Shown: in pieces, positions 7,121 to 45,861 of the stretch
Position numbering within the stretch: the stretch's first letter is position 1
How the letters are laid out: every line of letters begins with the position of its first letter
NCBI RefSeq assembly: GCF_000004075.3
Contig: NC_026655.2
Coordinates: forward strand, 6,200,001 to 6,264,000
DNA: 64,000 bases
Reading direction: 5' to 3'
Source of the DNA: Cucumis sativus
Taxonomy: Eukaryota > Streptophyta > Magnoliopsida > Cucurbitales > Cucurbitaceae
The notes under the pieces: model-generated
What the model saw: only the letters and a program-made list of their open reading frames with translations
Told to the model about the DNA's origin: nothing
The model's database searches: none
Translations under genes and position numbers: made by a program

Positions 7121-8581
7121 TTATTTTAAATTTGTGTTCCGCTTTTCATTTTTTTTAATTATTATTATCAATATTTTTTGTAGTTTTTCTAATTTAGGTT
7201 TTAATTATTGAAAAATTGTCAAAAATAGAATATTTGCCAAATATTTACCCTTAATAGAAAAATCAAGTGTAATAATTTATCAATTTTTTCTACTTTTGAA
7301 ACAATCCTTAATTGTTTTTTTTCTTAAATAGAAACTTGTATTCTAGGAAAACAAGGAGGCTCGTTAAATTGAAGTTGATATTAATAAATAGGATAAATTG
7401 TACTTTTGATTTATGTAGTTTGAAGTTCATGTCTATTTGAACTCTAAGATTTCGAAACATATATTTTAGTGTTCCACGTTTGTAAGATAATTCTAAATGG
7501 TCTCTTACTTAACTTTAAGTTAACATAATTCTTACTAGACCGTTACGTGATAATGTAGAAACTAATATATGTTTGATGACATGTTAATATTTTATTAACT
7601 GGAAAATCAATTGAAAACCAAAAAAAAATAATTTTGTAATTTTTTAAAAATATTTTGTAAATGCGACTACACAAAGAATTAATTAAGATATATACCTTTT
7701 ACCCATAAGTCAAAGTAAGTTTTACTTAGTGATATTCCTTTATTCGTACGTTCAAGTTTGAAATATTATGAAAGTGACTGGTGTGGTTTACAAATAAATA
7801 ACTATAATACTATATATATATTATGTGTTTAAAAAACATGTGTGAGCATAGAAAAATTTGGTCAATCAGAATTGATCATTGTGAGTTATCACAATGAAAT
7901 CAACCTCAAACACAAGATTGTAAATTTGTTTGGGCTGAACTCATCAATTTAAGTTCATGATAGAAATTGAGCTAAACAAGAGGTTGGATAACCCAAGCCA
8001 TATCCTAACTTCAATTGTTGGCCCATAAACAAAATCAACCTCAAACTAACTTAAGGTCTTCCAATTAAACTCTAGTTATTTGTCATATCCTTTACTTTCT
8101 TTTAGGAGATTGAAATTACTAAAGGCCGAAGCTCTCATAGTTACGAAGAACTAAGTTTTGAAGTTCTCAAATTTTCTGAAAACCCAAAGAATTAAAGCTT
8201 CGAAGCTCTCATAGTTTTGAATATCATTAGACAAAAAGCTCATACTCTTGTGAAGATTTGAAGACTAAAGTTGTTGGAAACTAAATTTTTTATTATCTTA
8301 CGTTCTTAAAGAGTAATTGAAGAGTTGGAAGCTGGATGTCCCCTGAAGGCTAGGAAGAAAAACTCCCTTCAATGTTTGAGAAACAAATATGTTACAACTA
8401 AATCGATTTAAAATTCCAAAATACAAATTTGAAAGTCAACACCCATTCTATAATTTCTTCATTGTTTCATTTGATGAATACAAGAAAGAAAAGATCATGC
8501 AAGACACTACAAAATTCTCCTCAACTAAATGCTCCCCACGTTTTTCAATCTCATTTCTCATCATCTCTTTCATCTTTCACT

Positions 8582-8587
8582 TATAAA
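8582..8587 (+). promoter_or_regulatory. TATA box of the 8657 gene
   Basis: TATAAA lies 70 bases upstream of the ATG at 8657, within a CT-rich leader. It also argues against the upstream in-frame ATG at 8429, which would lie ahead of the promoter. Confidence 0.5.
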
Positions 8588-8656
8588 GTCCCCATTACCA
8601 TCCATTTCCATTCACCTTCAATTCCTTCCTCTCATCACCCACATATTTCTCCGGCA

Positions 8657-9742
8657 ATGGCACCTGCATTGCCAACGTCCGGCAACTTCAACAATTCCAG
8701 GTCCATCTCCGGAAAGCTCGAGTTCATCGTTTCAACATATTCTCCCGATAATGCCGAATGCGCAGAGAAGGAAAAACAGATATCAGTAGATCCAATTTCA
8801 TTGAGAGAATCATCAGCTAGAGAGGACATAATGGTGGATCCTCTCACGGCTCCTGACGTCGCCGATCTTCATCTCCCGCCGCCACTCCCTCCGACCCAGT
8901 TCAAGTTCTTAAGCTACAGCCTACCGAATTCTGCCAATTCCTCCCCCCAAATCGGTTTAATAAAAAAGAAAGGAAAATTTGAAAATCAAGTATCATTACT
9001 TAAAGTCTCCAATTCCACAAAACTCAATTCTTCGGTTCACGATATACAGAGTACTCCGCAAGAAGATGCTCAATTTCGAAGGAGCAAATCGTGTGGCGAA
9101 GGCAGAGCAAGTGCTCCAGCTGACGATTTGGATTTGTGGTTAAACAAAGCAAAGTTGCCCGAAACGAAAAGCTACGACGATGGTTTCTCAAAGACTGAAT
9201 CGAACAAGAAATTAGAGGCTCCGGATGACGGATTTAACTGCGGAGCACTCTGTTTGTTCTTACCGGGATTCGGCAAAGGGAAATCGGTTAAGTCAATTAG
9301 AAAGGAAGAAGAAACAACAGAGGTAGAAAAAGTGAGAATATCGAAGACAGAGATTGGAAGTGTGATATCGAGGACGGTTTCTTTAGAGAAATTCGAATGT
9401 GGATCATGGGCTTCCTCTGTTTTGCCAAACGAACCCGGCGAAGACGAAGCGGGTAACAGCCTTTTCTATGATCTTCCATTAGAGTTAATGAGAAGTAGTG
9501 TGGATGCCAATGCACCAGTCAATGCAGCGTTCGTTTTTGATAAAGATCACAAGGGAGTAATGAAGAACAACTCGTCGACAAAAGTAGTTCAAAAATCGCA
9601 TGAATCGACTTCTCATCGTGCCCGATTTTCGGCATCGTCTCCTTCTTCAGGACCATCATCGCCAGCTTCTTGCATTACTCCTAAATTGCGAAAGGCAAGA
9701 GAGGAGTTTAATGCCTTCCTAGAAGCCCAAAGTAGTGCTTAA
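8657..9742 (+). CDS. Uncharacterised plant-specific protein, 361 aa
   Basis: An intronless frame of 361 codons. An ATG further upstream (8429) is in frame, but a TATAAA motif at 8582 and a low-complexity S/H/P-rich leader translation favour the start at 8657. The protein is hydrophilic, Ser-rich and lacks a signal peptide or membrane span. Visible blocks are a proline cluster (LPPPLPPTQFKFLSYSLP, about 72-90), a basic RRSKSCGEGR motif (141-150) followed by acidic DDLDLW, a short hydrophobic Cys block CGALCLFLPGFGKGK (195-209), YDLPLELM (271-278) and a conserved-looking C-terminus, SPASCITPKLRKAREEFNAF (about 335-354). I associate this block order with a family of functionally unassigned plant proteins. 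I cannot give it a function. Confidence 0.75.
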   Translation: MAPALPTSGNFNNSRSISGKLEFIVSTYSPDNAECAEKEKQISVDPISLRESSAREDIMVDPLTAPDVADLHLPPPLPPTQFKFLSYSLPNSANSSPQIGLIKKKGKFENQVSLLKVSNSTKLNSSVHDIQSTPQEDAQFRRSKSCGEGRASAPADDLDLWLNKAKLPETKSYDDGFSKTESNKKLEAPDDGFNCGALCLFLPGFGKGKSVKSIRKEEETTEVEKVRISKTEIGSVISRTVSLEKFECGSWASSVLPNEPGEDEAGNSLFYDLPLELMRSSVDANAPVNAAFVFDKDHKGVMKNNSSTKVVQKSHESTSHRARFSASSPSSGPSSPASCITPKLRKAREEFNAFLEAQSSA

Positions 9743-15222: not shown

Positions 15223-18200
15223 ATGGATAAGCATTATTTCATAAATTGTTATGTCTCATTTGTATGGGTGTTTTGTGTAATATTGCTCTCAACTACAATT
15301 GTTGGTGATTATACTTCAAATAATTGTAGCGATATTGAGAGGGAAGCCTTGATTTCCTTCAAACAAGGCTTATTAGATCCTTCAGCTCGACTTTCTTCTT
15401 GGGTCGGCCATAATTGCTGTCAATGGCATGGCATAACTTGTAATCCCATTTCAGGAAAAGTCATTAAAATTGATCTACACAATTCATTAGGCTTTGCCAT
15501 TTCTCAATTTGTTGAGTATGGAGATCCAGGACGACCATGGATAGATCTCGAGGATTTCATACGAGAGTTCCAAAAGACTTGCTTGAGAGGGAAAATAAGT
15601 TACTCTCTACTTGAGCTCAAATATTTGTACTATTTGGACTTAAGTTTCAATGATTTTGAAGGTGCTTCAATTCCATATTTCTTTGGGATGCTCAAAAGTT
15701 TAAGGTACCTCAAGCTTTCTTCTGCAAATTTTAATGGACAGATTCCCATTTATCTTAGAAATTTGACTAATTTGAGCTATCTAGATCTTTCGGATGAACG
15801 AGGATTCATGTTACATGTTAAGAACTTGCAATGGCTCCCAAGTCTTTCTTCTCTTGAGTACCTTAATCTTGGAGGTGTGAATTTAATTAGTGTTGAAAGA
15901 AATTGGATGCATACAATCAATAGACTTTCTTCTTTGTCAGAGCTGCACTTAAGTAATTGTGGTATTTCAAGTTTCGATACTTCAATTGCTTTTTTAAACC
16001 TCACTTCACTTAGAGTCCTTGATTTATCAAGTAATTTGATAAATTCTTCCATACCTTTATGGCTATCGAATTTGACTAGTCTTTCAACACTTAATTTAAA
16101 TGACAATATTTTTCAAGGAACAATTCCTCATAATTTTGTGAAATTGAAAAATCTCCGAGTTCTTGAATTGAGTGGGAATAGTTTAAGTAATGATATTGGA
16201 GATCACAACCCACCAATCTTTTCACAAAGTCTTTGCAACTTACGATTTTTGCACCTTGCATACAATCATTATGATTTTAAACTTGAAATTTTTTTGGATA
16301 GTTTCTCAAATTGTTCGCGCAATAGGTTGGAATCCTTGGATTTGGAAGGTAATAGAATTGTGGGAGAGATACCAAATTCACTGGGGACGTTTAAGAATCT
16401 TCGATTCTTGAATCTTTCTGATAATTTCTTGTGGGGTTCACTTCCAAATTCAATAGGTAATTTGTCATTATTAGAGCATCTACATGTGTCGAGTAATGTC
16501 TTGAATGGAACTATACCTTCGAGTTTTGGTCAACTTTCAAAATTAGTTTATTACGAAGATTATGGGAATTCATGGAATACAACCATAACAGAAGTTCACT
16601 TAATGAATTTGACAGAATTGAAAATCCTTCAAGTGTGGACAAAAAATATACAAACTTTTGTTTTCAACATCACATACGATTGGATTCCTCCCTTTTGTCT
16701 CAAGATCCTTTTTTTGGAAAATTGTCTCATTGGCTCTCAATTTCCAACTTGGCTTCGAACTCAAACTCAACTAACTGAGATTGTTCTCTCTAATGTTGGG
16801 ATTTTTGGCTCTCTACCAAACGACTGGATTTCTAAGGTATCTTCTCAAGTCATTAGATTGGATTTGTCCAACAACTTATTCAATCTAAACCTGTCTCACA
16901 TATTCACTTCTCATCAGAAAAATGATAGTGGAGAAAATGATTCAATTATTCCCTTAAGATATCCTAATCTAATACACTTAGATCTTCGAAATAATCAACT
17001 GTTGGGCACTGTACCCTTAACCATCAACGATTCGATGCCCAATCTGTATAGATTAGATTTGTCAAAAAATAATCTCCACGGTACAATTCCATCATCCATT
17101 AAAACCATGAATCATCTTGAAGTACTTTCAATGTCACACAACCAACTTTCAGGGAAGCTCTTTGATGATTGGAGTAGACTCAAATCATTACTCGTTGTTG
17201 ATTTAGCCAAGAACAATCTTCACGGAAAAATCCCAACCACAATAGGTTTGTTGACATCCCTCAACAAATTGATGTTAAACAACAACAATCTCCATGGAGA
17301 AATTCCCAATTCTTTGCAGAATTGTTCACTCCTCACCAGCCTTGACCTCTCTGAAAACAGATTATTATCCGGAAAGCTACCGTCATGGTTAGGAGTAGCT
17401 GTGCCAAAGCTACAATTGTTAAACCTACGGTCGAACCGTTTCAGTGGAACCATCCCAAGACAATGGTGCAATCTTTCTGCCATCTGTGTGCTAGATCTAT
17501 CAAACAACCATCTTGATGGGGAGCTCCCAAATTGTTTATATAATTGGAAATATTTCGTGCAAGATTACTACAGGGATGGATTGAGATCTTATCAAACAAA
17601 TAGTGGAGCCTATTACAGCTATGAAGAAAATACAAGATTGGTTATGAAAGGAATGGAATCTGAATACAATACTATTCTTGACTCTGTTTTGACAATAGAT
17701 CTTTCAAGGAATAAATTGAATGGTGAAATTCCAAAGGAGATTACAAACCTTGTCCAACTTGATACCTTAAACTTATCGAACAACAACTTTGTTGGTATCA
17801 TACCAGAAAATATTGGAGCTATGAAGAAATTAGAGACACTGGATCTGTCCTACAACAATCTGCGTGGCAGAATTCCTGCCAGTCTAGCTTCACTAAATTT
17901 CTTGACGCATTTGAATATGTCATTCAACAATTTGACAGGAAAAATACCAATGGGTAATCAACTTCAAACGTTGGAAGATCCCTCCATCTATGAAGGGAAT
18001 CCTTCTTTATGTGGACCTCCTCTTCAAATCAAGTGTCCAGGGGATGAAAGCTCAAACAATGTTCTTATTTCAACAAGTGAAGAAGAAGAAGAAGAAGATG
18101 GGAATGAAAATGACTTGGAAATGATTGGCTTCTACATTAGTATGGCAATTGGTTTTCCAGTTGGAATCAACATATTGTTCTTCACCATTTTCACAAACGA

Positions 18201-18309
18201 AGCAAGAAGAATATTCTACTTTGGTTTTGTGGATGATGTCAATTACAAAATACTCCAAATAATTGATTTTCTTATAGTTGGTCTGAGGAGAATGATGAGA
18301 TGGAGATGA
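15223..18309 (+). CDS. EIX2-like LRR receptor-like protein, RLP-A
   Basis: A single-exon frame of 1028 residues. EIX-type receptor-like proteins sit in the plasma membrane, bind extracellular ligands and signal through SOBIR1/BAK1-type kinases. Signal peptide about 1-28. The LRR N-cap has the CCQWHGITC signature, followed by an extended row of plant LRRs. A non-LRR island (YEENTRLVMKGMESEY) precedes the last LRRs. The LRR C-cap is CGPPLQIKCPGD, then an acidic stretch rich in Glu before a membrane helix at about 967-990 (FYISMAIGFPVGINILFF, with a GxxxG pattern). The cytoplasmic tail is about 38 residues with no kinase and contains YKIL, a YxxPhi-type sorting signal. It is the most diverged of the four long copies. 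The ligand is unknown. Confidence 0.93.
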   Translation: MDKHYFINCYVSFVWVFCVILLSTTIVGDYTSNNCSDIEREALISFKQGLLDPSARLSSWVGHNCCQWHGITCNPISGKVIKIDLHNSLGFAISQFVEYGDPGRPWIDLEDFIREFQKTCLRGKISYSLLELKYLYYLDLSFNDFEGASIPYFFGMLKSLRYLKLSSANFNGQIPIYLRNLTNLSYLDLSDERGFMLHVKNLQWLPSLSSLEYLNLGGVNLISVERNWMHTINRLSSLSELHLSNCGISSFDTSIAFLNLTSLRVLDLSSNLINSSIPLWLSNLTSLSTLNLNDNIFQGTIPHNFVKLKNLRVLELSGNSLSNDIGDHNPPIFSQSLCNLRFLHLAYNHYDFKLEIFLDSFSNCSRNRLESLDLEGNRIVGEIPNSLGTFKNLRFLNLSDNFLWGSLPNSIGNLSLLEHLHVSSNVLNGTIPSSFGQLSKLVYYEDYGNSWNTTITEVHLMNLTELKILQVWTKNIQTFVFNITYDWIPPFCLKILFLENCLIGSQFPTWLRTQTQLTEIVLSNVGIFGSLPNDWISKVSSQVIRLDLSNNLFNLNLSHIFTSHQKNDSGENDSIIPLRYPNLIHLDLRNNQLLGTVPLTINDSMPNLYRLDLSKNNLHGTIPSSIKTMNHLEVLSMSHNQLSGKLFDDWSRLKSLLVVDLAKNNLHGKIPTTIGLLTSLNKLMLNNNNLHGEIPNSLQNCSLLTSLDLSENRLLSGKLPSWLGVAVPKLQLLNLRSNRFSGTIPRQWCNLSAICVLDLSNNHLDGELPNCLYNWKYFVQDYYRDGLRSYQTNSGAYYSYEENTRLVMKGMESEYNTILDSVLTIDLSRNKLNGEIPKEITNLVQLDTLNLSNNNFVGIIPENIGAMKKLETLDLSYNNLRGRIPASLASLNFLTHLNMSFNNLTGKIPMGNQLQTLEDPSIYEGNPSLCGPPLQIKCPGDESSNNVLISTSEEEEEEDGNENDLEMIGFYISMAIGFPVGINILFFTIFTNEARRIFYFGFVDDVNYKILQIIDFLIVGLRRMMRWR

Positions 18310-20452: not shown

Positions 20453-23400
20453 ATGGCTGATAAGGATTTCATAAAGTGTTATGTCTCATTTGTATGGATG
20501 CTTTGTGTAATATTGCTCTCAACAACTATTGTTGGTGCTTATACTTTCAATAATAACTGTAGCTCTGTTGAGAGGGAAGCCTTGATTTCCTTCAAACAAG
20601 GCTTATCAGATCCTTCTGCTCGTCTTTCTTCCTGGGTGGGTCACAATTGTTGTCAATGGCATGGCATAACCTGTAATCTCATTTCTGGAAAAGTCACCAA
20701 AATTGATCTACACAACTCATTCAAATCTACCATTTCTACATCCCTTACCATTTCTGCATCATCTTCTACCATTTCTCCATCATCTCTTAGGATTATGATT
20801 ATTAGTGGGGGTTATGAACAACCATGGAAAGATTCCGAGGATTTTGTCCAAGTATTCCAAAAGACTTGTTTGAGAGGGAAAATGAGTTCTTCTCTACTTG
20901 AGCTCAAATATCTGAATTATCTGGACTTAAGTCTAAATAATTTTGAAGGTGCTCCAATTCCATATTTTTTTGGGATGCTCACGAGCCTAAGGTACCTCAA
21001 CCTTTCTTTTGCAAATTTTAGTGGACAAATTCCCGTTTATCTAGGAAATTTATCTAATTTGAATCATCTAGATCTTTCTACTTGGAAACTAGAGAATTTC
21101 GATTGGCCTAATTTGCATGTTGAAAACTTGCAATGGATTTCTGGTCTTTCTTCTCTTGAGTTCCTTAATCTTGGAGGGGTGAATTTAATTAGTGTCCAAG
21201 CTTCAAATTGGATGCACACAGTCAATGGACTTTCTTCTTTGTCAGAACTATATTTAAGTAATTGTGGTATTTCAAGTTTTGACACTTCAACTGATTTTTT
21301 AAATCTCACTTCACTCATAGTCCTTGATATCTCACGTAATAGGATAAATTCTTCCATACCTTTGTGGCTATCTAATCTTACTAGTATTTCAACGCTTGAT
21401 CTGAGTTACAATTATTTTCAAGGTACAATTCCTCATGATTTTATGAAATTGAAAAATCTCCAACACCTAGACTTCACCTCTAATAGCTTAAGTAATATTA
21501 TTGGAGATCACTCACGGCCAAGCTTTCCACAAAATCTTTGCAACTTACAACTTTTGCACCTTTCATACAATAGTTTTCAGGATAAACTTGAAGAGTTTTT
21601 GGATAGTTTCTCAAATTGTACCCTGAATAGTTTGGAATCCTTGGACTTGTCAAGCAATGGATTTGTGGGAGAGATACCAAATTCATTGGGAACATTTGAG
21701 AACCTAAGAACCTTAGATCTTTCCTTCAATAAATTGTGGGGTTCACTTCCAAATTCAATAGCTAATTTTTCATTGTTACAGTACTTAGATATCTCATTTA
21801 ACTCCTTAAATGGAACTATACCTTTAAGTTTTGGACAACTTTCAAACTTAGTCACGTTCAGAAATCACCAAAATTCATGGAAAAATATAACCAGAACAGA
21901 GACAGACTTAGTAAATTTGACAAAGTTGGAGATCTTTCACCTCTCGACAAAAAATACACAAGAATTTGTTTTCTCAACATCTCATGCGATTGGATTCCTC
22001 CATTCAAACTGAAGGTTCTTTATTTGGAAAATTGTTTCATTGGCCCACAGTTTCCAATTTGGCTTCGAACTCAAACTCACCTTATTGAGATCACTCTCAG
22101 GAATGTGGGGATCTCAGGCTCTATACCATATGAGTGGATTTCTAACATATCTTCTCAAGTCACTATATTGGATTTGTCCAACAACTTGCTCAATATGAGA
22201 TTGTCCCACATATTCATCATATCTGATCAAACTAATTTTGTTGGTGAAAGTCAAAAGCTCCTCAATGACTCAATTCCCCTTCTTTATCCCAATCTAGTAT
22301 ACTTGAATCTACGAAACAACAAACTGTGGGGCCCTATACCCTCAACTATCAATGATTCCATGCCCAAGTTGTTTGAATTAGATTTGTCTAAGAATTACCT
22401 TATTAATGGTGCAATTCCGTCGTCCATTAAAACAATGAATCACCTTGGAGTATTGTTAATGTCAGACAACCAACTTTCAGGAGAGCTTTTTGATGATTGG
22501 AGTAGACTCAAATCAATGTTTGTTGTTGATTTAGCCAACAATAATCTACACGGAAAAATTCCAAGCACAATAGGTCTATCAACATCGCTCAATGTATTAA
22601 AGTTAGAGAACAACAATTTGCATGGAGAAATTCCGGAATCCTTGCAGAATTGTTCGCTACTCACGAGCATTGATCTTTCAGGAAATAGATTCTTAAACGG
22701 AAACTTGCCTTCATGGATAGGAGTAGTTGTGTCAGAGCTACGATTGTTAAACCTGCGGTCTAATAATTTCAGCGGAACCATTCCAAGACAATGGTGCAAT
22801 CTTCTTTTTCTTCGTATATTTGATCTATCAAACAATCGTCTTGTTGGAGAAGTTCCAAGTTGTTTGTATAATTGGACATCTTTTGTCGAAGGCAACGATG
22901 ACATTATTGGATTGGGATATTATCATGAGGGTAAGAAAACGTGGTATTACTCGTTCGAAGAAAAGACAAGATTGGTTATGAAAGGTATAGAGTCTGAATA
23001 CTACAATAAAGTTCTCGAGCTTGTTCTGACAATAGATCTTTCAAGGAATGAATTGAGTGGTCAGATTCCAAATGAGATAACAAAGCTCATTCACTTGGTT
23101 ACTCTAAACTTGTCTTGGAACGCTCTTGTGGGTACCATTTCAGAAAGCATTGGGGCCATGAAAACTTTAGAAACACTGGATCTCTCCCACAACCATCTTT
23201 CTGGAAGGATTCCCGATAGCCTAACATCTTTAAATTTCTTGACACATTTGAATATGTCATTCAACAATTTGACAGGAAGAATACCGACGGGTAATCAGCT
23301 TCAAACACTGGAAGACCCATGGATCTATGAAGGCAATCATTATCTATGTGGGCCTCCTCTAATTCGGATCAAGTGTCCAGGTGATGAGAGTTCAAGCAAT

Positions 23401-23646
23401 CTACCAATTTCAACAAGTGAAGGAGAAGAAGATGGCAAAGAAAATGACTCGGCAATGGTTGGCTTCTATATCAGTATGGCAGTTGGTTTTCCATTTGGCA
23501 TCAGCATACTGTTGTTTACCATTTGCACAAATGAAGCGAGGAGAATATTCTACTTTGGCATTGTGGATCGTGTCAATTATAACATACTCCAAACAATTGC
23601 CTTTCTTACAATTGGTCTGAGGAGAATGATTATATGGAGACGATGA
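20453..23646 (+). pseudogene. EIX2-like RLP-B, frameshifted copy
   Basis: Homologous to its neighbours along the full length but split into two frames. The first runs from the ATG at 20453 to a stop at 22012 (519 residues: signal peptide, LRR N-cap, N-terminal LRRs). The second continues to 23646 and carries the remaining LRRs, island, C-cap, acidic stretch, membrane helix (FYISMAVGFPFGISILLF) and the tail with YNIL. Comparison with RLP-A and RLP-C (TTTTCAACATC, TTTTCAATATC) against TTTTCTCAACATC here shows two extra bases (TC) within 21972-21975. The total length, 3194, is two over a multiple of three. Apart from this the copy looks intact, so it is either a young pseudogene, a null allele or a sequence error. 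A Ser/Thr-rich expansion follows the N-cap. Confidence 0.85.
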
Positions 23647-27109: not shown

Positions 27110-27519
27110 TGGGCAAGTAGGAAACTTAATAATTTAATTGTTAGCTGGACAACACTAAGTCTAGAACCTAAAGCTAATTTTTCCTTTTTCGTACGTATAT
27201 CAAATCATGGTCATATTTTTCATATGGTTAGATGATTTATGTGTAAGAAATGATAATTTGCATATGTATTATTGTTTGAAAGACATGATTTTGGATGCTT
27301 CCGATAAAAAAAAGAATTATATACCCATAATTTGGAGGCCATGTGTCATAATTGTGTCCACTTCCAACGACTTTTAGCTTCTGATCTCTCTAGTTTTTTC
27401 TTATTAACAAAAAAGAAAAATACGTTTAAGAGTGTTTATATATGCATATATATTTGTCCAATCAATTAGCAAATTTTGCAAAAACATATTCTGTGTTCTG
27501 TGAAAATTATTGGAAGCTT
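27110..27519 (+). promoter_or_regulatory. Duplicated promoter block of RLP-C
   Basis: Aligns with the upstream blocks of RLP-B and RLP-D (AGCTGGACAACACTAAG, ATATCAAATCATGG, GGTTAGATGATTTATGTG, then TTAGCAAATTTTGCAAAA). The TATA-like stretch is at 27437-27451. The in-frame ATG at 27442 lies inside this TATA stretch, so it is unlikely to be transcribed. Confidence 0.6.
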
Positions 27520-30500
27520 ATGGCCTATAAGGATTTCATTAATTGTTCTCTCTCATATGTATGGCTGCTTTGCGTAATATTGCTCTCAACTACTATGGTT
27601 GGCGCTTATTCTTCCAATAGTAACTGTAGCTCTATTGAGAGGGAAGCCTTGATTTCCTTCAAGCAAGGCTTATTAGATCCTTCTGCTCGGCTTTCTTCCT
27701 GGGTGGGTCACAATTGTTGTCAATGGCATGGCATAACCTGTGATCTCGTTTCTGGAAAAGTCACCAAAATTGATCTACACAACTCATTAAGCTCTACCAT
27801 TTCTCCAACTTTTATGTATGGTTGGAATGTTTTACAACCGTGGAAAGTATACAAGGATTTTGTACAAGAATTCCAAAAGACTTGCTTGTGGGGGAAAATA
27901 AGTTCATCTCTGCTTGAGCTCAAACATTTGAATTCTTTAGACTTAAGTCTAAATAATTTTGAAGGTGCTCCAATTCCATATTTTTTCGGAATGCTCGCGA
28001 GCTTAAGGTACCTCAACCTTTCTTTTGCAAATTTTAGTGGACAAATTCCCATTTATCTAGGAAATTTATCTAATTTGAATTATCTAGACCTTTCTACTAA
28101 TTGGAATCAAGAGTACTTTTTCAAATGGAATAATTTGCATGTTGAAAACTTGCAATGGATTTCTGGTCTTTCTTCTCTTCAGTACCTTAATCTTGGAGGG
28201 GTGAATTTTAGTAGAGTCCAAGCTTCAAATTGGATGCATGCAGTCAATGGACTTTCTTCTTTGTTAGAACTACACTTAAGTCATTGTGATATTTCAAGTT
28301 TTGATACTTCAGCTGCTTTTTTAAATCTCACTTCACTTAGAGTCCTTGATCTCTCACGTAATTGGATAAATTCTTCTATACCTTTGTGGCTATCTAACCT
28401 TACTAGCATTTCAACGCTTTATCTGAGATATAATTATTTTCGAGGTATAATGCCTCATGATTTTGTGAAATTGAAAAATCTCCAACACCTAGACTTATCC
28501 TTTAATTTTGTTGGAGATCACCCACCAAGCTTTCCAAAAAATCCATGCAAGTTACGACTTTTGAACCTTGCAGTCAATAGTTTTCAGGTTAAACTTGAAG
28601 AGTTTATGGATAGTTTCTCAAATTGTACACGGAATAGTTTGGAATCCTTGGACTTGTCAAGAAATAGATTTGTGGGAGAGATACCAAATTCATTGGGAAC
28701 ATTTGAGAACCTAAGAACCTTAAATCTCTTCGGTAATCAATTGTGGGGTTCACTTCCAAATTCAATAGGTAATTTGATATTGTTAAAATATTTAGATATC
28801 TCATATAACTCTTTAAATGGAACTATACCTTTAAGTTTTGGACAACTTTCAAACTTAGTTGAGTTCAGAAATTACCAAAATTCATGGAAGAATATAACCA
28901 TAACAGAGACACACTTAGTAAATTTGACAAAGTTGGAGATGTTCACCTTCAAGACAAAAAATAAACAAGGATTTGTTTTCAATATCTCATGCGATTGGAT
29001 TCCTCCATTCAAACTGAAGGTTCTTTATTTGGAAAATTGTCTCATTGGTCCACAGTTTCCAATTTGGCTTCAAACTCAAACTCAACTTGTTGACATCACT
29101 CTCACCGATGTTGGGATCTCTGGCTCTATACCATACGAGTGGATTTCTAACATATGTTCACAAGTCACTACATTGGATTTATCCAACAACTTGCTCAATA
29201 TGAGCTTGTCCGACATATTCATCATATCTGATCAAACTAATTTTGTTGGTGAAAGTCAAAAGCTCCTCAACGACTCAATTCCCATCCTTTATCCAAATCT
29301 AATATACTTGAATCTACGAAACAATAAACTGTGGGGCCCTATACCCTCAACTATCAATGATTCCATGCCCAACTTGTTTGAATTAGATCTGTCAAAGAAT
29401 TACCTTATTAATGGTGCAATTCCGTCATCCATTAAAATAATGAATCACCTTGGAATATTGTTAATGTCAGACAACCAACTTTCAGGGGAGCTTTCTGATG
29501 ATTGGAGTAAACTCAAATCATTGCTTGTGATTGATTTAGCCAATAATAATCTATACGGAAAAATTCCAGCCACAATAGGTTTGTCCACATCCCTTAACAT
29601 ATTAAAGTTGAGGAACAACAATTTGCATGGAGAAATTCCGGAATCCTTGCAGACTTGTTCGCTACTCACAAGCATTGATCTTTCAGGAAATAGATTCTTA
29701 AACGGAAATCTTCCTTCATGGATAGGAGAAGCTGTGTCAGAGCTGCGATTGTTAAACTTGCGGTCTAATAATTTCAGCGGAACCATTCCAAGACAGTGGT
29801 GCAATCTTCCTTTCCTTCGTATATTAGATCTATCAAACAATCGTCTTTCTGGTGAACTTCCAAATTGTTTGTATAATTGGACAGCTTTGGTCAAGGGCTA
29901 CGGTGACACTATTGGATTGGGATACTATCATGATAGTATGAAATGGGTGTATTACTTGTACGAAGAAACGACAAGGTTGGTTATGAAAGGTATAGAGTCT
30001 GAATACAACAACACTACTGTTAAGCTGGTTTTGACAATAGATCTTTCACGAAATATATTAAGTGGTGAAATTCCAAATGAGATAACAAACCTCATTTATT
30101 TGATTACTCTAAACTTGTCATGGAATGCTCTTGTGGGTACCATTCCAGAAAATATTGGGGCCATGAAGACTTTAGATACACTGGATTTCTCCCACAACCA
30201 TCTTTCAGGAAGGATTCCCGACAGCCTAGCTTCTTTAAATTTCTTGGCACATTTGAATATGTCATTCAACAATTTGACAGGAAGAATACCGACGGGTTAT
30301 CAGCTTCAAACACTGGAAGACCCCTCGATCTATGAAGGCAATCCTTATCTATGTGGACCTCCTCTAATTCAGATGAAGTGTCCAGGTGATGAAAGTTCAA
30401 GCAATGTACCAATTTCTACAAGCGAAGTAGAAGAAGATGGCAAAGCTGAAAATGACTCGGAAATGGCTGGCTTCTATATTAGTATGGCAATTGGTTTTCC

Positions 30501-30663
30501 ATTTGGCATCAACATACTGTTCTTTACCATTTTCACAAATGAAGCAAGGAGAATATTCTACTTTCGAGTTGTGGATCGTGTCAATTATAACATACTCCAA
30601 ACAATTGCCTTTCTTACAATTGGTCTGAGGAGAATGATTATATGGAGACGACGAAGCTACTAA
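27520..30663 (+). CDS. EIX2-like LRR receptor-like protein, RLP-C
   Basis: A single-exon gene of 1047 residues from the ATG at 27520. The longer frame starting at 27442 begins within the TATA region, and the paralogue RLP-B has a stop in that leader, so the conserved MAYKDF start is preferred. It has a signal peptide (about 1-28), CCQWHGITC N-cap, an extended LRR row, a non-LRR island (YEETTRLVMKGIESEY), C-cap CGPPLIQMKCPGD, acidic stretch, membrane helix FYISMAIGFPFGINILFF with GxxxG, and a short tail with the YNIL sorting motif and no kinase. The usual TGA of the paralogues reads CGA here, extending the tail by RSY before TAA. Bases 28732-29149 are identical to RLP-D. Confidence 0.93.
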   Translation: MAYKDFINCSLSYVWLLCVILLSTTMVGAYSSNSNCSSIEREALISFKQGLLDPSARLSSWVGHNCCQWHGITCDLVSGKVTKIDLHNSLSSTISPTFMYGWNVLQPWKVYKDFVQEFQKTCLWGKISSSLLELKHLNSLDLSLNNFEGAPIPYFFGMLASLRYLNLSFANFSGQIPIYLGNLSNLNYLDLSTNWNQEYFFKWNNLHVENLQWISGLSSLQYLNLGGVNFSRVQASNWMHAVNGLSSLLELHLSHCDISSFDTSAAFLNLTSLRVLDLSRNWINSSIPLWLSNLTSISTLYLRYNYFRGIMPHDFVKLKNLQHLDLSFNFVGDHPPSFPKNPCKLRLLNLAVNSFQVKLEEFMDSFSNCTRNSLESLDLSRNRFVGEIPNSLGTFENLRTLNLFGNQLWGSLPNSIGNLILLKYLDISYNSLNGTIPLSFGQLSNLVEFRNYQNSWKNITITETHLVNLTKLEMFTFKTKNKQGFVFNISCDWIPPFKLKVLYLENCLIGPQFPIWLQTQTQLVDITLTDVGISGSIPYEWISNICSQVTTLDLSNNLLNMSLSDIFIISDQTNFVGESQKLLNDSIPILYPNLIYLNLRNNKLWGPIPSTINDSMPNLFELDLSKNYLINGAIPSSIKIMNHLGILLMSDNQLSGELSDDWSKLKSLLVIDLANNNLYGKIPATIGLSTSLNILKLRNNNLHGEIPESLQTCSLLTSIDLSGNRFLNGNLPSWIGEAVSELRLLNLRSNNFSGTIPRQWCNLPFLRILDLSNNRLSGELPNCLYNWTALVKGYGDTIGLGYYHDSMKWVYYLYEETTRLVMKGIESEYNNTTVKLVLTIDLSRNILSGEIPNEITNLIYLITLNLSWNALVGTIPENIGAMKTLDTLDFSHNHLSGRIPDSLASLNFLAHLNMSFNNLTGRIPTGYQLQTLEDPSIYEGNPYLCGPPLIQMKCPGDESSSNVPISTSEVEEDGKAENDSEMAGFYISMAIGFPFGINILFFTIFTNEARRIFYFRVVDRVNYNILQTIAFLTIGLRRMIIWRRRSY

Positions 30664-31393
30664 TTAAAAATGCCATTTCTTGGTGGGCAGCAAATGGATC
30701 AAATTTATTTTTAAGATTGATAATTTGAAGAAGTGTGTTGCTTATTTTATTTTACATCAAATTAACTTGTTATGCATGTATGTTATATATTATATGGTTG
30801 TGGATTGTTGTAATTTATTATAATAAGTCAACGGATAATGTTCATAAATTATTTTGTGTTTGTTTATATTGTTATTATCATCCAATAATCATATAGATAA
30901 AAGAATGAAGTGAGTTAATTAGTTAATTAATCAATAATCAACGGATAGAGATTTCTTTATGGGACAGTTCAATTCACTTAATTAGCAAATGAATAATTAT
31001 ACTTATTCATTAATTAGTTATTTCATTTGACACATTATTCTTTTTTTCACAATAAAGCTAAAGTCTCATATTGGCAAGGACTTTTTTAAATATTTATATT
31101 TGAAAAACAACTTTCTTCAAAGTCTTTGGTAAATCTCAATATTTAATCAGAAGGATTTTATTTTTATACAATAAAAATTGGCTACTAAAAAAGAAAAGAA
31201 AAAGAAAAGAAAAAACCCTTTCAAAGATTTCACAACTATCACATTTTGTAAGATTTTTGCATAAATTGGTATTTGTATTGTTTTTTTATTTTATATTATT
31301 TGATCAGTGTTTTAGAAACACCATTTTTGACTTGCTGAACAAGTTTATGCTCTCAAAATATCTTCTTTATACAAAATCACTAAACACACACAA
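30664..31393. other. 3' flank of RLP-C, duplicated
   Basis: No gene. It aligns with the region downstream of RLP-D: shared words include AATAAAGCTAA, GTCTCATATT and ATACAATAAAAATTGGCTAC. Its last part (ATTATTTGATCAGTGTTTTAG) reappears at about 43275, on the far side of the LINE. Confidence 0.6.
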
Positions 31394-32224
31394 AAGACAG
31401 TGGTGCAATCTTCCTTTCCTTCGTATATTAGATCTATCAAATAATCGTCTTTCTGGTGAAGTTCCAAATTGTTTGTATAATTGGACAGCTTTTGTGATCA
31501 ATGGCAACCATAGCAATGACTAGTTTGGGATATTATGGTGATAATAAGGGAACAAAGTTGGTTATGAAAGGTAAAGAGTCTGAATACTACTATAATATTC
31601 TCAAGCTTGTTCTGACAATAGATCTTTCAAGGAATAAATTGAGTGGTGAAATTCCAAATGAGATAAACAAAGCTCATTCACTTGGTTACTCTAAACTTGT
31701 CTTGGAATGCTCTCTTGTGTACCATTCCAGAAAATATTGGAGCCATAAAGAATTTACAAACATTGGATCTCTCCCACAACCATCTTATTGGAAGGATCCC
31801 TGTCAGCTTAGCATCTCTAACTTTGTTGATACATTTGAGTATGTCATTCAACAATTTGACAGGAAGAATACCGACGGGTAATCAGCTTCAAACACTGGAA
31901 CACCTTCCGATCTATGAAGGCAATCCTTATTTATGTGGGCCTCCTCTTCAAATCAAGTGTCCAGGTGATGAAAGTTCAAGCAATGTACCAATTTCAACAA
32001 GAGAAGAAGAAAAAGAAGATGGTGAAGCTGAAAATGACTCGGAAATGGTTAGGATGGCAATTGGTTTTCCGGTTGGTATCAACATACTGTTCTTTACCAT
32101 TTTCACAAACCAAGCAAGGAGAGTATTCTACTTTCGTTTCGTGGATCGTGTCAATTACAACATACTTCAAACAACTGATCACTTTCTTACGTTTGGTGTG
32201 AGGAGAATGATGATATGGAGATGA
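31394..32224 (+). pseudogene. Truncated EIX2-like RLP fragment (C-terminal part)
   Basis: Homology to RLP-C begins abruptly at AAGACAGTGGTGCAATC, equivalent to the codons for RQWCNLPFLRILDLSNN, and runs to the stop at 32224. The signal peptide, N-cap and most LRRs are missing. Two frame changes are visible: one near 31495-31510 (island region) and an extra A near 31665, where GATAAACAAAG replaces GATAACAAAG of RLP-B. The last piece still encodes C-cap CGPPLQIKCPGD, acidic stretch, membrane helix and tail, but has lost the residues corresponding to GFYIS before the helix. No promoter precedes it. It is a dead partial duplicate that may still donate sequence to neighbours. Confidence 0.88.
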
Positions 32225-34139
32225 AGTTACTAATTAAAACTGCAGTTTTTCTTGGTGGATCGAGTTTATTTTTTAGATCGATAATTTTAAGAAGCGTGTT
32301 GATAATTTTGATTATAATTATAGTTGCTTTGTTTTTCTTGATTATTATTCCATATTCATCCAATAATCATATAGAAGAAAGGATGAAGTGTGTTGGTTAA
32401 TTAATCAATAGGAAGTAAAATTGGATAGAGATTTCTCTATGCTACACGTCAATATTTTACTTAACTATTATAGTCCTTTTTTAAAAATTAAACATGTTTT
32501 CTTTCATTTCTTCGGATCGATCTTAAGTAGAAAAGTAAAATATAGATATCAAAGTAAAAAAATTAGATTTAGAAGTAAAAAAAAGGGTGTTAAACAAAAA
32601 GATACTGAACTTTAATAACTATGTAAAATATTAAAAAGAGTAATAATTTTAAATTACAAATTTAGTTCATAAAAACTTATAAATTTAATATATTATCTAA
32701 AAAATAAATTCACCCAGTTAAAAGATGGAAAATTATTTTTAAAAAAAGTTAATAAAATTAGATATTTATTAAAATTTGGTGACAACGATTGTATCAAGGG
32801 GTATACAATGTGTAGACTGAGTTTCGTTTTTACCATTTTTGCAAATTATAAAGTGTGTGCTATGAACTTAATTATTATAACTTATTTTGTCATTTGTGCA
32901 AGTGCTCCAATTCAAAATTACTTTTAAGTATTTAAAAAGTAATTTCAAAAGTTTGTAACCAAACAAAAAGTTTATCGTTAAAAAATCACTATTACAAAAT
33001 CAATGGGATATAAATCTCTTTTTTTCTAAAATCACTACTCCAAGTATCACTTACAAACGTATTTATAGTCTATCAAACTGATACACACTAATTAATATTT
33101 ACGAATGATATTTTGTTATATTTATAAATATTTTAGTTTATTTTACTATATTTAAAAACATGTAATTGTAAGAAAAAAGATAATCATATATTTGATGGGG
33201 TTGTTAGGTATGAACACGAACATTCTTTTATAGAAAATAAGTAAAAGAAAGAAAAACGTTCTGTATTTTATTTCTTTTCAAATGCACCAGTCTTTTGTTC
33301 CCTTTTTTCAAACTTTGTATAGTTTCGTTGACAAATATTATGAAAAAGAAAAAAAAAATCAAAATATGTATTATGTGGAAAATTAAGCATTAGTATTTTT
33401 TTTTGTTATTATTGAGTTGGTTAAACTAATCGAAATTTCACCTCAAAATCAAATTGACAATTCTAAAAGTAACTCATCTATTTGATTTTTTTTTTATTTG
33501 TTCAACGTAGGATTCTCAAGGTTCTTAACATGTTCTCTCGAGATGTTGTACCTTCTTAGGTTCATCAATCTTAGATCGAAATACAAAAATCGAAATGATT
33601 ATCATACGAAACCTTAATAACTAGGGTGGATTTAGAAAGACTTAGTTTATAAAGCTTTGCAAAAATATTAAAAGAAAAAGTAAAAAATTTAAATTGCAAA
33701 TTTAGTTCATAAAAACTTTTAAATTTTGTCTTTGTGTTGGACCATTGAACTTATATTTATTGTGAGGGTTAAAACATGTAACTATGACTTTGTTTTATAC
33801 TAATAAGTTAATTTAGAAGTGCCATAAATTAGGAAGTTCATTAATAACAAGGTCAACAATCTTGCTACCCCTAAATGCCAAGGCTGGCTAGCTGAGTTCC
33901 ACTCACTAGTAACTTCAAACTACAGACACAATGAGGAAGTGAAACATTGATAACAGGAAAAGGAAAGAAGCAATCAATTTTTTCACTTTCTTCTCTTAGC
34001 CGGTGGTTCAAGTGTTTCCATATGTATAAATAGTTTCAATCTTTTTCTTAAAAATTTAAATGTCTTTAAATCATCTACTCGTACAGAAAAATTTAATAGG
34101 TGAAGATAAATTTAATATACCTGTATCCTAATAAATAGT
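32225..34139. other. Spacer between RLP fragment and RLP-D
   Basis: No gene. It begins with the usual RLP 3' flank and then repeats the spacer type seen before RLP-C. An inverted remnant of the 26.1-kb repeat flank is at about 32805-32935. A palindromic-family fragment with GTTATATTTATAAATATTTT is near 33116. Confidence 0.55.
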
Positions 34140-34753
34140 TTTGAATTGCAAATGTGTAGGATTGAGTTTACAGCACCAACTTTTGAACCTAAACCTAATT
34201 TTTTCGTACATATATCAAATCATGGTCCCATATACATTTTTCAAATTGTTAGATGATTTATGTGCAAGAAATATTAATATTTCCATATGTATTATTGTTT
34301 CAACCGCATGATTTTGGATGCTTCCCTGAAGTTTCTTATTAGCACTTTCACACTTGAGTGTGTGTTCAAACTTATTTATTTTTGTTTTCTTCAAAGTAGT
34401 GTTTTTTGTTTGTTACCTTCTTCTTCTTTTTTTAATAATTTATTATAATTATAAATAGTTTCAATATTTTTCTGCAATCAAATAATGCTCTATTTTAGGA
34501 GTGTGTATCATTAATAGAATTAATAGAATACGTTTTCCAATTAAGATAATAATTATATATCCATATTTTGGAGGCATGCGTGAAAAATGAGTCTATGTGA
34601 CATAATTGGGTTCACTTCCACACGACTTTTAGCTTCTCTCACTAGTTAAAATTAAAACAAGCCTTAAAGAGTTTTTATATATATATGTCCAATTGATTAG
34701 CAAATTCTGCAAAAATATATTCTGTGTTCTGTGAAAATTATTGGAATTCGCAT
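34140..34753 (+). promoter_or_regulatory. Duplicated promoter block of RLP-D
   Basis: Aligns with the blocks before RLP-B and RLP-C, including ATATCAAATCATGGTCCC, TTAGATGATTTATGTG and the leader TTAGCAAATTCTGCAAAA. The TATA-like run is at 34675-34687. Compared with the other copies the block contains extra sequence around 34380-34560. Confidence 0.6.
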
Positions 34754-37700
34754 ATGGCCGATAAGCATTTCATAAATTGTTATGTCTCATTAGTATGGCT
34801 GCTTTTTGTAATATTGCCCTCAACTACTACTGTTGGTGATTATACTTCCAATAATAACTGTAGCTCTATTGAGAGGGAAGCCTTGATTTCCTTCAAACAA
34901 GGCTTATCAGATCCTTCTGCTCGTCTTTCTTCCTGGGTTGGCCATAATTGTTGTCAATGGCTTGGCATTACTTGTGATCTCATTTCTGGAAAAGTCATTG
35001 AAATTGATCTACACAACTCAGTGGGCTCTACCATTTCTCCATCATCTATTAGGTTTGGTGTGGATGAGAAACAACCATGGAAAGTTCCCGAGGATTTTGA
35101 ACAAGAATTCCTAAAGACTTGTTTGAGAGGGAAAATAAGTTCTTCCCTACTTGAGCTCAAACATTTGAATTATCTCGACTTAAGTTTAAATAATTTTGAA
35201 GGTGCTCCAATTCCATATTTTTTTGGGATGCTCACGAGCCTAAGGTACCTCAACCTTTCTTTTGCAAATTTTAGTGGACAAGTTCCCATTTATCTAGGAA
35301 ATTTATCTAATTTGAAATATCTGGATCTTTCTACTTGGAATCTAGCGTTTTTCGAATGGCCTAGTTTGCATGTTCAAAACTTGCAATGGATTTCTGGTTT
35401 TTCATCCCTTGAGTACCTTAATCTTGGAGGGGTGAATTTAAGTAGTGTCCAAGCTTCAAATTGGATGCATGCTTTTAATGGTGGACTCTCCTCTTTGTCA
35501 GAATTACGCTTAAGTCAGTGTGGTATTTCAAGTTTTGATTCTTCAGTTACCTTTTTAAATCTCAGTTCACTTAGAGTCCTTGATTTATCAGGTAACTGGA
35601 TAAATTCTTCCATACCTTTGTGGCTATCTAACCTTGCTAACATTTCAACGCTTTATCTGAGTGCCAATCATTTTCAAGGTACAATTCCTCATGATTTTAT
35701 AAAATTGAAAAATCTCCAACACCTAGACTTAGCATTGAATAGCGAAATTAGTGTTATTGGAGATCACCCACCAATCTCTCCACAAAATCTTTGCAAATTA
35801 CGACTTTTGGACCTTTCATACAGTAGTTTTAAGGTTAAACTTGAAGAGTTTTTGGATAGTTTCTCAAATTGTACCCGGAATAGTTTGGAATCCTTGGACT
35901 TGTCAAGAAATGAATTTGTGGGAGAGATACCAAATTCATTGGGAACATTTGAGAACCTAAGAACCTTGAATCTCTTAGGTAATCAATTGTGGGGTTCACT
36001 TCCAAATTCAATAGGTAATTTGATATTGTTAAAATATTTAGATATCTCATATAACTCTTTAAATGGAACTATACCTTTAAGTTTTGGACAACTTTCAAAC
36101 TTAGTTGAGTTCAGAAATTACCAAAATTCATGGAAGAATATAACCATAACAGAGACACACTTAGTAAATTTGACAAAGTTGGAGATGTTCACCTTCAAGA
36201 CAAAAAATAAACAAGGATTTGTTTTCAATATCTCATGCGATTGGATTCCTCCATTCAAACTGAAGGTTCTTTATTTGGAAAATTGTCTCATTGGTCCACA
36301 GTTTCCAATTTGGCTTCAAACTCAAACTCAACTTGTTGACATCACTCTCACCGATGTTGGGATCTCTGGCTCTATACCATACGAGTGGATTTCTAGCATA
36401 TCTTCTCAAGTCACTACATTGGATTTGTCCAACAACTTGCTCAATATGAGCTTGTCCCACTTATTCATCATACCTGATCATACTAATTTTGTTGGTGAAA
36501 GTCAAAAACTTCTCAATGACTCAACTCCCCTCCTTTATCCAAATCTAATACACTTGAATCTACGAAACAATAAACTGTGGGGCCCTATGCCCTTAACTAT
36601 CAATGATTCGATGCCCAACTTGTTTGAATTAGATTTGTCAAAGAATTACCTTATTAATGGTACAATTCCATCATCCATTAAAACAATGAATCACATTGGT
36701 ATATTGTTAATGTCAGACAACCAACTTTCAGGGGAGATTTTTGATGATTGGAGTAGACTCAAATTAGTGCTTCGTGTTGATTTAGCCAACAATAATCTAC
36801 ACGGAAACATTCCAACCACAATAGGTCTGTCAACATCGCTCAATGTATTAAAGTTAGAGAACAACAATTTGCATGGAGAAATTCCAGAATCCTTGCAGAA
36901 TTGTTCACTACTCAAGAGCATCGATCTTTCAGGAAATGGATTCTTAAACGGAAACCTGCCTTCATGGATAGGAGTAGCTGTGTCAAAAATACGATTGTTG
37001 AACTTGCGGTCTAATAATTTCAGCGGAACCATTCCAAGACAATGGTGCAATCTTCATTTTCTTCGTATATTAGATCTATCAAACAATCGTCTTTTTGGTG
37101 AACTTCCAAGTTGTTTGTATAATTGGTCAGCTTTTGTCCATGGCGATGATGATGACAATGTTGGATTAGGATTGAATTATTATAGCAAAGCAGCGATCAG
37201 TTACTCATATGAAGAAAATACAAGGTTGGTTACCAAAGGAAGAGAGTTTGAATACTACAACACTATTGTTAAGTTTGTTCTGACGATAGATCTTTCAAGG
37301 AATAAATTGAGTGGTGAAATTCCAAAGGAGATAACAAAGCTCATTCAATTGGTTACTCTAAACTTATCTTGGAATGCTCTGGTGGGTACCATTCCAGAAA
37401 ATATTGGGGCGATGAAGACTTTAGAAACACTAGATCTCTCCCTCAACTATCTTTCTGGAAGGATTCCCGACAGCCTAGCATCTTTAAATTTCTTGACACA
37501 TTTGAATATGTCATTCAACAATTTGACAGGAAGAATACCGATGGGTAATCAGCTTCAAACACTGGAAGACCCCTCGATCTATGAAGGTAATCCTTATCTA
37601 TGTGGGCCTCCTCTAAGTCGGATCAAGTGTCCAGGTGATGAAAGTTCAAGCAATGTACCAATTTCCACAAGCGAAGAAGAAGACGACAAAGCTGAAAATG

Positions 37701-37900
37701 ACTCGGAAATGGTTGGCTTCTATATCAGTATGGCAATTGGTTTTCCATTCGGCATCAACATACTGTTCTTTACCATTTCCACAAATGAAGCAAGGAGATT
37801 ATTTTACTTTCGAGTTGTGGATCGTGTCAATTATAACATACTCCAAACAATTGCCTTTCTTACAATTGGTCTGAGGAGAATGATTATATGGAGACGATGA
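34754..37900 (+). CDS. EIX2-like LRR receptor-like protein, RLP-D
   Basis: A single exon of 1048 residues from the conserved MADKHF start; ten more in-frame leader codons from 34724 are judged untranslated by comparison with RLP-B. Architecture: signal peptide (about 1-28), N-cap with CCQWLGITC, an extended LRR row, island (YEENTRLVTKGREFEY), C-cap CGPPLSRIKCPGD, acidic stretch, membrane helix FYISMAIGFPFGINILFF with GxxxG, and a 38-residue tail with YNIL and no kinase. It differs from RLP-C mainly in the first third and the island. Bases 35978-36395 are identical to RLP-C. The likely role is pattern recognition at the cell surface with a SOBIR1-type partner; the ligand is unknown. Confidence 0.93.
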   Translation: MADKHFINCYVSLVWLLFVILPSTTTVGDYTSNNNCSSIEREALISFKQGLSDPSARLSSWVGHNCCQWLGITCDLISGKVIEIDLHNSVGSTISPSSIRFGVDEKQPWKVPEDFEQEFLKTCLRGKISSSLLELKHLNYLDLSLNNFEGAPIPYFFGMLTSLRYLNLSFANFSGQVPIYLGNLSNLKYLDLSTWNLAFFEWPSLHVQNLQWISGFSSLEYLNLGGVNLSSVQASNWMHAFNGGLSSLSELRLSQCGISSFDSSVTFLNLSSLRVLDLSGNWINSSIPLWLSNLANISTLYLSANHFQGTIPHDFIKLKNLQHLDLALNSEISVIGDHPPISPQNLCKLRLLDLSYSSFKVKLEEFLDSFSNCTRNSLESLDLSRNEFVGEIPNSLGTFENLRTLNLLGNQLWGSLPNSIGNLILLKYLDISYNSLNGTIPLSFGQLSNLVEFRNYQNSWKNITITETHLVNLTKLEMFTFKTKNKQGFVFNISCDWIPPFKLKVLYLENCLIGPQFPIWLQTQTQLVDITLTDVGISGSIPYEWISSISSQVTTLDLSNNLLNMSLSHLFIIPDHTNFVGESQKLLNDSTPLLYPNLIHLNLRNNKLWGPMPLTINDSMPNLFELDLSKNYLINGTIPSSIKTMNHIGILLMSDNQLSGEIFDDWSRLKLVLRVDLANNNLHGNIPTTIGLSTSLNVLKLENNNLHGEIPESLQNCSLLKSIDLSGNGFLNGNLPSWIGVAVSKIRLLNLRSNNFSGTIPRQWCNLHFLRILDLSNNRLFGELPSCLYNWSAFVHGDDDDNVGLGLNYYSKAAISYSYEENTRLVTKGREFEYYNTIVKFVLTIDLSRNKLSGEIPKEITKLIQLVTLNLSWNALVGTIPENIGAMKTLETLDLSLNYLSGRIPDSLASLNFLTHLNMSFNNLTGRIPMGNQLQTLEDPSIYEGNPYLCGPPLSRIKCPGDESSSNVPISTSEEEDDKAENDSEMVGFYISMAIGFPFGINILFFTISTNEARRLFYFRVVDRVNYNILQTIAFLTIGLRRMIIWRR

Positions 37901-38516
37901 AGCTACTAACCAAAACTGTAATTTCTTGGTGGGGCAGCAAATGGATCAAATTTATTTTTAAGATTGAAAATTTTAAGAAATGTGTTGCTTTTTTTTTTTT
38001 TACATCAAATTTAGTTTTTATGCATGTATGTCATTATGGCTGTGGATTTTGATAATTGATTATAATAAATGAACGGACGATTTTAATTACTTTTTTTTTA
38101 TTGTTATTATTATCATCCATATTATAATCATGTTGATGAAAGGATGAAGTGAGTTGTTTAATTAATCAATAGGAAGTAAAATTGGATAGAGATTTCTTTA
38201 TCGTACATGTCATTATTTCACTTAACTAGCAAATGAATTATTATACTTGTACGTTTTAGTGAGTTATTTCATTTGACACATTTTTTTCATAATAAAGCTA
38301 AGGTCTCATATTTGTAAGGATTTTTTTAATTACTTATATTTGAAAAACATTTTTCTTCTTTACTCAATATTTAACGAGAATGATTTTTTCATACAATAAA
38401 AATTGGCTACTACATAAGAAAACAAAAAGGGAAAGAACGGTAAAAAACCAAAAAAAAACCTTCAAAGCTTCACATCTTTCACAGCTATTGCATAAATAAT
38501 TTTTCAAGTTCTTCTG
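37901..38516. other. 3' flank of RLP-D
   Basis: No gene. It is collinear with the RLP-C 3' flank up to about 38490 (TTGCATAAAT), where the LINE insertion interrupts the match. Confidence 0.6.
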
Positions 38517-45084: not shown

Positions 45085-45861
45085 ATGAAGAGAATACGGC
45101 AACAGCTTCTTACCCTACAACGTCTTCCACTCTCACCAGAGCTCCTCCGCTTTCAAATTCCCGCCATTCTTTCTCCATTTTCTTCTTCTTCCTCCTTCAT
45201 TTCCGATTCTCCATCAGCTTCCATAGCCACCAAACCCAATACCACTCTGACCCACGACGAGCTCACAAGGATCAATCTCCTTCTTCCTCGTCTCTGTCTC
45301 CACAACCACCTTTCTACTGCTATCTCTCTTCTCCACGCCACTCTCCTCACCAATCCTTCACTTCACTCTCTTTCCCTTTCAGTTCTCTCCCACTCACTTG
45401 CTTCCCAGTCCGATTTTGCCCTCACAATGTCCCTCCTCACTCGTCTTAAGCACCATCCCAATGCCCTTCTCTATTCAACCCCTATCGTCACTATGCTTAT
45501 TTCCTCTTATTGCAAACGCCGGAAATCCAAGGAGGCGTTGAAGCTTTTCCATTGGATGCTGAGACCGGGGTCGCCATGTAAGCCGGAAGAGAGGGTTTAT
45601 AAAACCCTAATTGCGGGACTTTATAGGAAGGGTATGACATTTGATGCTTTGAAGGTTCTCAGGAATATGATTGATTCGAATTTGGTTCCGGATTGCGATT
45701 TGAGAAATTGGGTTTTTAGGTCTTTGCTGAAAGAAGCGATGATCCCCGAAGCCATGGAGTTTAATGATGCTTTGAATTTCGTTGGCGATCAGAATACAAT
45801 TGACCATCTTCGAAGGGTGTCGGAATTGTTGAATCGTATCATCACCAATTGGATAGACTAG
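45085..45861 (+). CDS. Short pentatricopeptide-repeat (PPR) protein, 258 aa
   Basis: One exon of 258 codons, with the start at the first ATG after the TATA box. The N-terminus is rich in Arg, Ser and Leu with few acidic residues (MKRIRQQLLTLQRLPLSPEL), suiting a mitochondrial or plastid targeting peptide. Helical repeats follow: LYSTPIVTMLISSYCKRRKS with EALKLFHWML (about 131-161), ERVYKTLIAGLYRKGMTFDA with LKVLRNMIDSNLVPD (about 170-205) and a weaker DLRNWVFRSLLKEAMIPEAM (about 207-226). PPR proteins bind organellar RNA and guide its processing, editing or translation. This one is short for the family and has no E, DYW or SMR domain, so it belongs with small P-class proteins. A splice donor just past the stop suggests a 3' UTR intron. 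Confidence 0.8.
   Translation: MKRIRQQLLTLQRLPLSPELLRFQIPAILSPFSSSSSFISDSPSASIATKPNTTLTHDELTRINLLLPRLCLHNHLSTAISLLHATLLTNPSLHSLSLSVLSHSLASQSDFALTMSLLTRLKHHPNALLYSTPIVTMLISSYCKRRKSKEALKLFHWMLRPGSPCKPEERVYKTLIAGLYRKGMTFDALKVLRNMIDSNLVPDCDLRNWVFRSLLKEAMIPEAMEFNDALNFVGDQNTIDHLRRVSELLNRIITNWID

Follow-up and report, generated by a model that had tools for sequence, protein, structure and literature searches.

Tandem genes of the tomato Cf-4/9 locus reportedly exchange sequence with one another; Parniske et al. are said to have described this in 1997, in a paper whose title cites novel resistance specificities. For Arabidopsis, passages of a review tie conversion among NBS-LRR, RLK and RLP genes to similarity, proximity, orientation and recombination rate (PMC3924838). 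The same passages regard conversion as perhaps not the primary force in R-gene evolution and cite a maize cluster without conversion (PMC3924838). Intergenic conversion among paralogous immune receptor genes that affects the LRR is described for RPP8 of Arabidopsis; according to excerpts of that study, these are NLR genes accompanied by population data, and their tandem copies exchange little, the exchange being mostly with a copy 2 Mb away (PMC6771003). Conversion in LRR receptor families is already published, and the tract described here, shared by two tandem genes for LRR receptor-like proteins, is a clean new instance.

Four tandem genes for LRR receptor-like proteins, A, B, C and D, lie in a single orientation in the window, by which we mean the whole 64-kb stretch of DNA that was analysed (Table 1). 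Outside the tract, RLP-A has a DNA identity of ~79% to B, C and D. In RLP-B, a 2-base insertion at ~21972-21973, which repeats a TC, breaks the frame within the homologue of the tract of C and D. RLP-C has a second in-frame ATG at position 27520, aligned with the starts of A and B, and an in-frame ATG of RLP-D at 34754 is aligned with the other copies. As tandem copies of an LRR receptor-like protein gene, C and D are old. In A, C and D, Pfam recognizes the N-terminal LRR cap (PF08263) and LRR families, and no kinase family was found by Pfam in these three proteins. The match of the truncated fragment between C and D in the protein search reads through stop codons. At the left edge of the window (1-587, minus strand), there is a further LRR receptor match, with an open frame of 1163 aa that runs past the window, and an open frame of 437 aa at 8429-9742 is without a Pfam match at E 0.001. 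The window that holds the receptor cluster also contains a PPR-repeat open frame (45085-45861, plus strand) and an amino acid permease (55337-57133, minus strand).

Table 1. Positions within the window of the receptor genes, the gene fragment and the tract shared by RLP-C and RLP-D
Feature	Position	Strand	Description
RLP-A	15223..18309	+	intact, 1028 aa; most diverged copy
RLP-B	20453..23646	+	frame broken, two overlapping open reading frames
RLP-C	27442..30663	+	intact single open frame, 1073 aa; LRRNT_2 and LRR families
Probable left extension of the exchanged block	28723..28731	+	bases shared by C and D and absent from B; one mismatch
Exact tract in RLP-C	28732..29149	+	418 bases, 139 codons and one base; maximal exact match to 35978-36395
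5'-truncated RLP fragment between C and D	31394..32258	+	matches 3' parts of A, B, C and D
RLP-D	34724..37900	+	intact open frame, 1058 aa from GTG
Exact tract in RLP-D	35978..36395	+	maximal exact match to the RLP-C tract

An earlier note on this DNA had claimed that the tract is identical in C and D and that B differs across it. Both claims are borne out: C and D agree at all 418 bases, the very next base on either side is a mismatch, and B differs from both at 42 of the 418 aligned sites, in addition to its 2-base insertion. The peptide limits given in that note, from GNQLWGSLPNSIG to ISGSIPYEWIS, are likewise correct, and the tract codes for residues 431-569 of RLP-C and the first base of codon 570. 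Its two copies lie on the same chromosome, in the same orientation and 7246 bases apart. The next longest exact repeat in the window measures 95 bases, and the other longest identical runs between C and D comprise 93 and 54 bases. Outside the tract, C and D are identical at 2602 of 2918 aligned sites; the 316 differences amount to about one base in nine, or to 316 in 3336 aligned sites when the tract is included.

The description of the block as sharp-edged holds in part. Both flanks are diverged, with 17 differences between C and D in the nearest 200 sites on the left and 16 in 200 on the right. However, the left edge is softer than was described, and the left flank is relatively similar (4 differences in the nearest 100 sites, vs. 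8 in 100 on the right). C and D have the same base at positions 28723, 28728 and 28730, in each case different from B and at the latter two also from A, so that the real start of the block is probably near 28723. There are C-D mismatches at 28731, where none of the other three copies has the base of D, and at 28722, where D matches A while C matches B. On the right, a base private to D at 29150 is followed by bases private to C at 29156, 29160 and 29181. Judged from these site patterns, the exchanged block probably spans ~28723-29149, and D would have acquired a single change afterwards, at 28731. To the left of the tract, 54 bases are identical in B, C and D (21661-21714, 28668-28721 and 35914-35967), and A differs from them at ten sites; this may possibly reflect an older shared exchange, or chance.

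Chance as the cause of the tract itself is excluded. For one placement, the probability of a 418-base identity is (1-0.1083)^418, or ~1.6e-21, and when the 316 differences were placed randomly over the 3336 sites, the longest run in 20,000 trials was 186 bases. The earlier note had proposed a GENECONV-type check; our own implementation of a permutation test in the manner of that program, with 20,000 permutations of the four-copy alignment, gave a C-D run of 111 polymorphic columns, whereas no permuted run exceeded 38; both the pairwise and the global P were at the floor of 5e-5. In the three-copy alignment of B, C and D, this run covers 42 columns vs. a permutation maximum of 15, and at third codon positions the figures are 49 vs. 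38 for the four copies and 17 vs. 15 for the three. Synonymous divergence gives the same contrast between tract and flanks, where the earlier note had made its reading depend on the flanks being less similar than the tract: between C and D, dS is 0 in the tract (91.8 synonymous sites) vs. 0.186 in the flanks (616.4 sites). The sole nonsynonymous C-D difference in the tract count is base 29150, within the codon that straddles the last base of the tract. The tract and flank values of dS are 0.151 and 0.161, respectively, for B and C, 0.151 and 0.155 for B and D, and 0.450 and 0.511 for A and C. Since the divergence of B from C and D, and of A from C, is about the same in the tract as elsewhere, this stretch is not slow-evolving, and the C-D comparison alone has been reset.

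Recent interlocus gene conversion between the tandem genes C and D is the best reading of these data, and we hold it to be highly likely. Internal identity with both flanks diverged, in two copies of the same orientation that are 7246 bases apart, is the pattern that this process leaves; the block is longer than expected, and its identity includes silent sites. Most experimental estimates for interlocus tracts range from 50 to several hundred bases, as given in passages of a review for yeast and rodents rather than plants (PMC3924818), and we count the length of 418 bases, which falls into this range, in favor of conversion. In mechanistic terms, either C or D would recently have been broken within the mid-LRR coding region, and the broken copy would have been repaired by copying ~420-430 bases from the other copy, with no exchange of the flanks. 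The repair event itself, and its non-reciprocal nature, we infer from the pattern that it would have left. With A as the outgroup, the site patterns favor neither C nor D as the donor: sites at which C and D agree against A and B, the latter two being alike, make up 3.6% of the tract, while such sites together with those private to C account for 4.7% of the left flank and 3.5% of the right, and together with those private to D for 4.2% and 3.6%, respectively. With 418 bases free of differences, the divergence of the tract has a 95% upper bound, uncorrected for multiple hits, of 0.7% for all sites. This equals 7% of the divergence between C and D in the flanks, and the corresponding ratio for synonymous sites is 20%. 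If a simple clock is assumed, the exchange would be no older than 7% of the C-D separation time when all sites are used, and no older than 20% when synonymous sites are used.

No other robust conversion tract was detected in the array when the main tract was removed, the best global P in seven runs ranging from 0.011 to 0.10. The loosest four-copy scoring yielded P values of 0.011 for B-C and 0.015 for B-D, both for stretches that span the removed tract. Clear of it, a second and weak similarity between C and D is present near the 3' end (30121-30742 and 37370-37989; global P 0.012 in one scoring), which is possibly an older exchange; in the runs limited to B, C and D, the best C-D stretch lies inside or overlaps 30121-30742, with P values of 0.035 to 0.053. 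As the signals apart from the tract are marginal, frequent conversion in the array is without support.

A very unlikely alternative is that assembly or polishing wrote the sequence of one paralogue into the other copy. The length of the tract is close to the insert sizes of short reads, which counts for such an artefact. However, the window contains no N, and with a flank divergence of ~11%, reads that reach the edges of the tract should separate C from D. Furthermore, a comparable tract is present in a second RLP pair elsewhere in the assembly, although a single cause could lie behind both.

This second pair emerged from a comparison of exact matches between 26 of the 36 RLP-type loci, in which 320 non-overlapping pairs were compared on both strands; some of the 26 loci overlap one another, so that the pairs are not independent. 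In 32 of these 320 pairs, at least 30 exact bases are held in common, and two pairs exceed 95 bases, namely C-D with 418 and L029-L030, neighbouring RLP-type loci on contig C3 at ~28.77 Mb, with 564. L029 and L030 are ~95% alike over 2403 aligned bases, with several windows of 100% identity beside windows of 74-86%. When their 125 differences were scattered at random over 2398 columns, no run in 20,000 trials was longer than 293, and for the first 2000 columns, which exclude the diverged right part, P was 0.00015. Going by its sequence, this patchwork also appears conversion-like, and its 564-base tract means that the C-D tract is not the only one of its kind. When the 226.6-Mb assembly was searched at the DNA level with the C-D tract, five matches were listed: the tracts of C and D themselves (100%), B (91%), A (78%) and a copy on contig C3 (70%); among the matches listed, there is no further exact copy and no other donor.

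Unequal exchange, which the earlier note had named beside gene conversion, fares less well than conversion, for which the permutation results, the dS of 0 and the normal divergence of B speak. A single unequal crossover is disfavored: it would carry the identity outward to the end of the unit on one side, and both sides are diverged. A double crossover between misaligned tandem copies, or a succession of unequal ones, is a very unlikely origin of the internal block, as two exchanges within ~420 bases would be required; the truncated RLP fragment between C and D does point to other rearrangements in the past of the array. Strong purifying selection, or a mutation rate that is locally low, is hardly conceivable as the cause of the identity: parts of the encoded protein, for example around DWIPPF, resemble a solved relative (PDB 7drb), but A and B differ from C and D in the tract about as much as elsewhere, synonymous sites included, and the B-C and A-C values of dS given above refute it.

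The closest solved protein by sequence is this same 7drb (E 5.2e-137), labelled 'Membrane-localized LRR receptor-like protein', which we take to be RXEG1; its loopouts differ in sequence from those of C and D. The mapping onto 7drb was made by sequence alignment. Our structure model, computed from three sequences, has a mean pLDDT of 59, and in view of this low confidence we used it only for placing strands. Within the tract, it has strands at 450-452, 474-480, 500-505, 527-531 and 551-555, which, judged by their spacing, we take to be predicted inner-face strands, as well as short strands at 433-436 and 511-513; a helix is predicted at 1006-1031, with low confidence there. The island region carries a Y-x8-KG motif, recognized by eye as YEETTRLVMKG in C and YEENTRLVTKG in D, the motif being taken from passages of PMC12686451. 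Four LRR motif hits follow the island in C, in which this count was made, after overlapping and membrane-region hits had been dropped by eye. According to the same passages, RXEG1 and its ligand interact primarily via both loopouts, and the inner LRR surface wraps the ligand (PMC12686451).

The view that the exchange reshaped the ligand-facing solenoid, as put forward in the earlier note, is not supported by these data. The tract covers mid-LRR strands and lies outside both the island region (~residues 815-860) and the region aligned with the N-terminal loopout, each placed by eye, and its exchange made C and D alike, with no visible sign of a new specificity. At inner-face positions outside the tract, dN between C and D (0.111) is below dS (0.201), and no excess of dN over dS, as a mark of positive selection, was found at these positions; for this count, seven of 32 automatic motif hits had been dropped by eye beforehand. 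B and C differ at 24 of the 139 tract residues, with one gap in B left uncounted. In the flanks, C and D differ at 160 of 902 residues, a rate at which ~25 differences would be expected in the tract, and the exchange would in this way have erased some two dozen amino acid differences between the two proteins. That selection spread the block, bringing one favorable mid-LRR module into two working receptors and mattering for recognition by both, is unlikely; this idea draws on the frame of the converted block, which is intact in C and D and broken in B.

The C-D tract provides a clean, recent and well-bounded example of the way in which tandem immune-receptor genes share coding sequence. This cluster could be typed with the tract as a marker, and phylogenies of these paralogues are better built with that stretch left out; existing knowledge of the conversion process is left unchanged. 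At the tomato Cf-4/9 locus, too, tandemly repeated genes are reported to have exchanged sequence; the novel specificities of that title belong to Cf-4/9. Arabidopsis families (Mondragon-Palomino and Gaut, 2005, as cited in passages of PMC3924838) likewise exhibit conversion between similar, clustered LRR genes, RLPs included, and compared with them the C-D case is a single, very clear and recent tract. In contrast to RPP8, it is the tandem neighbours themselves that exchanged sequence in C and D.
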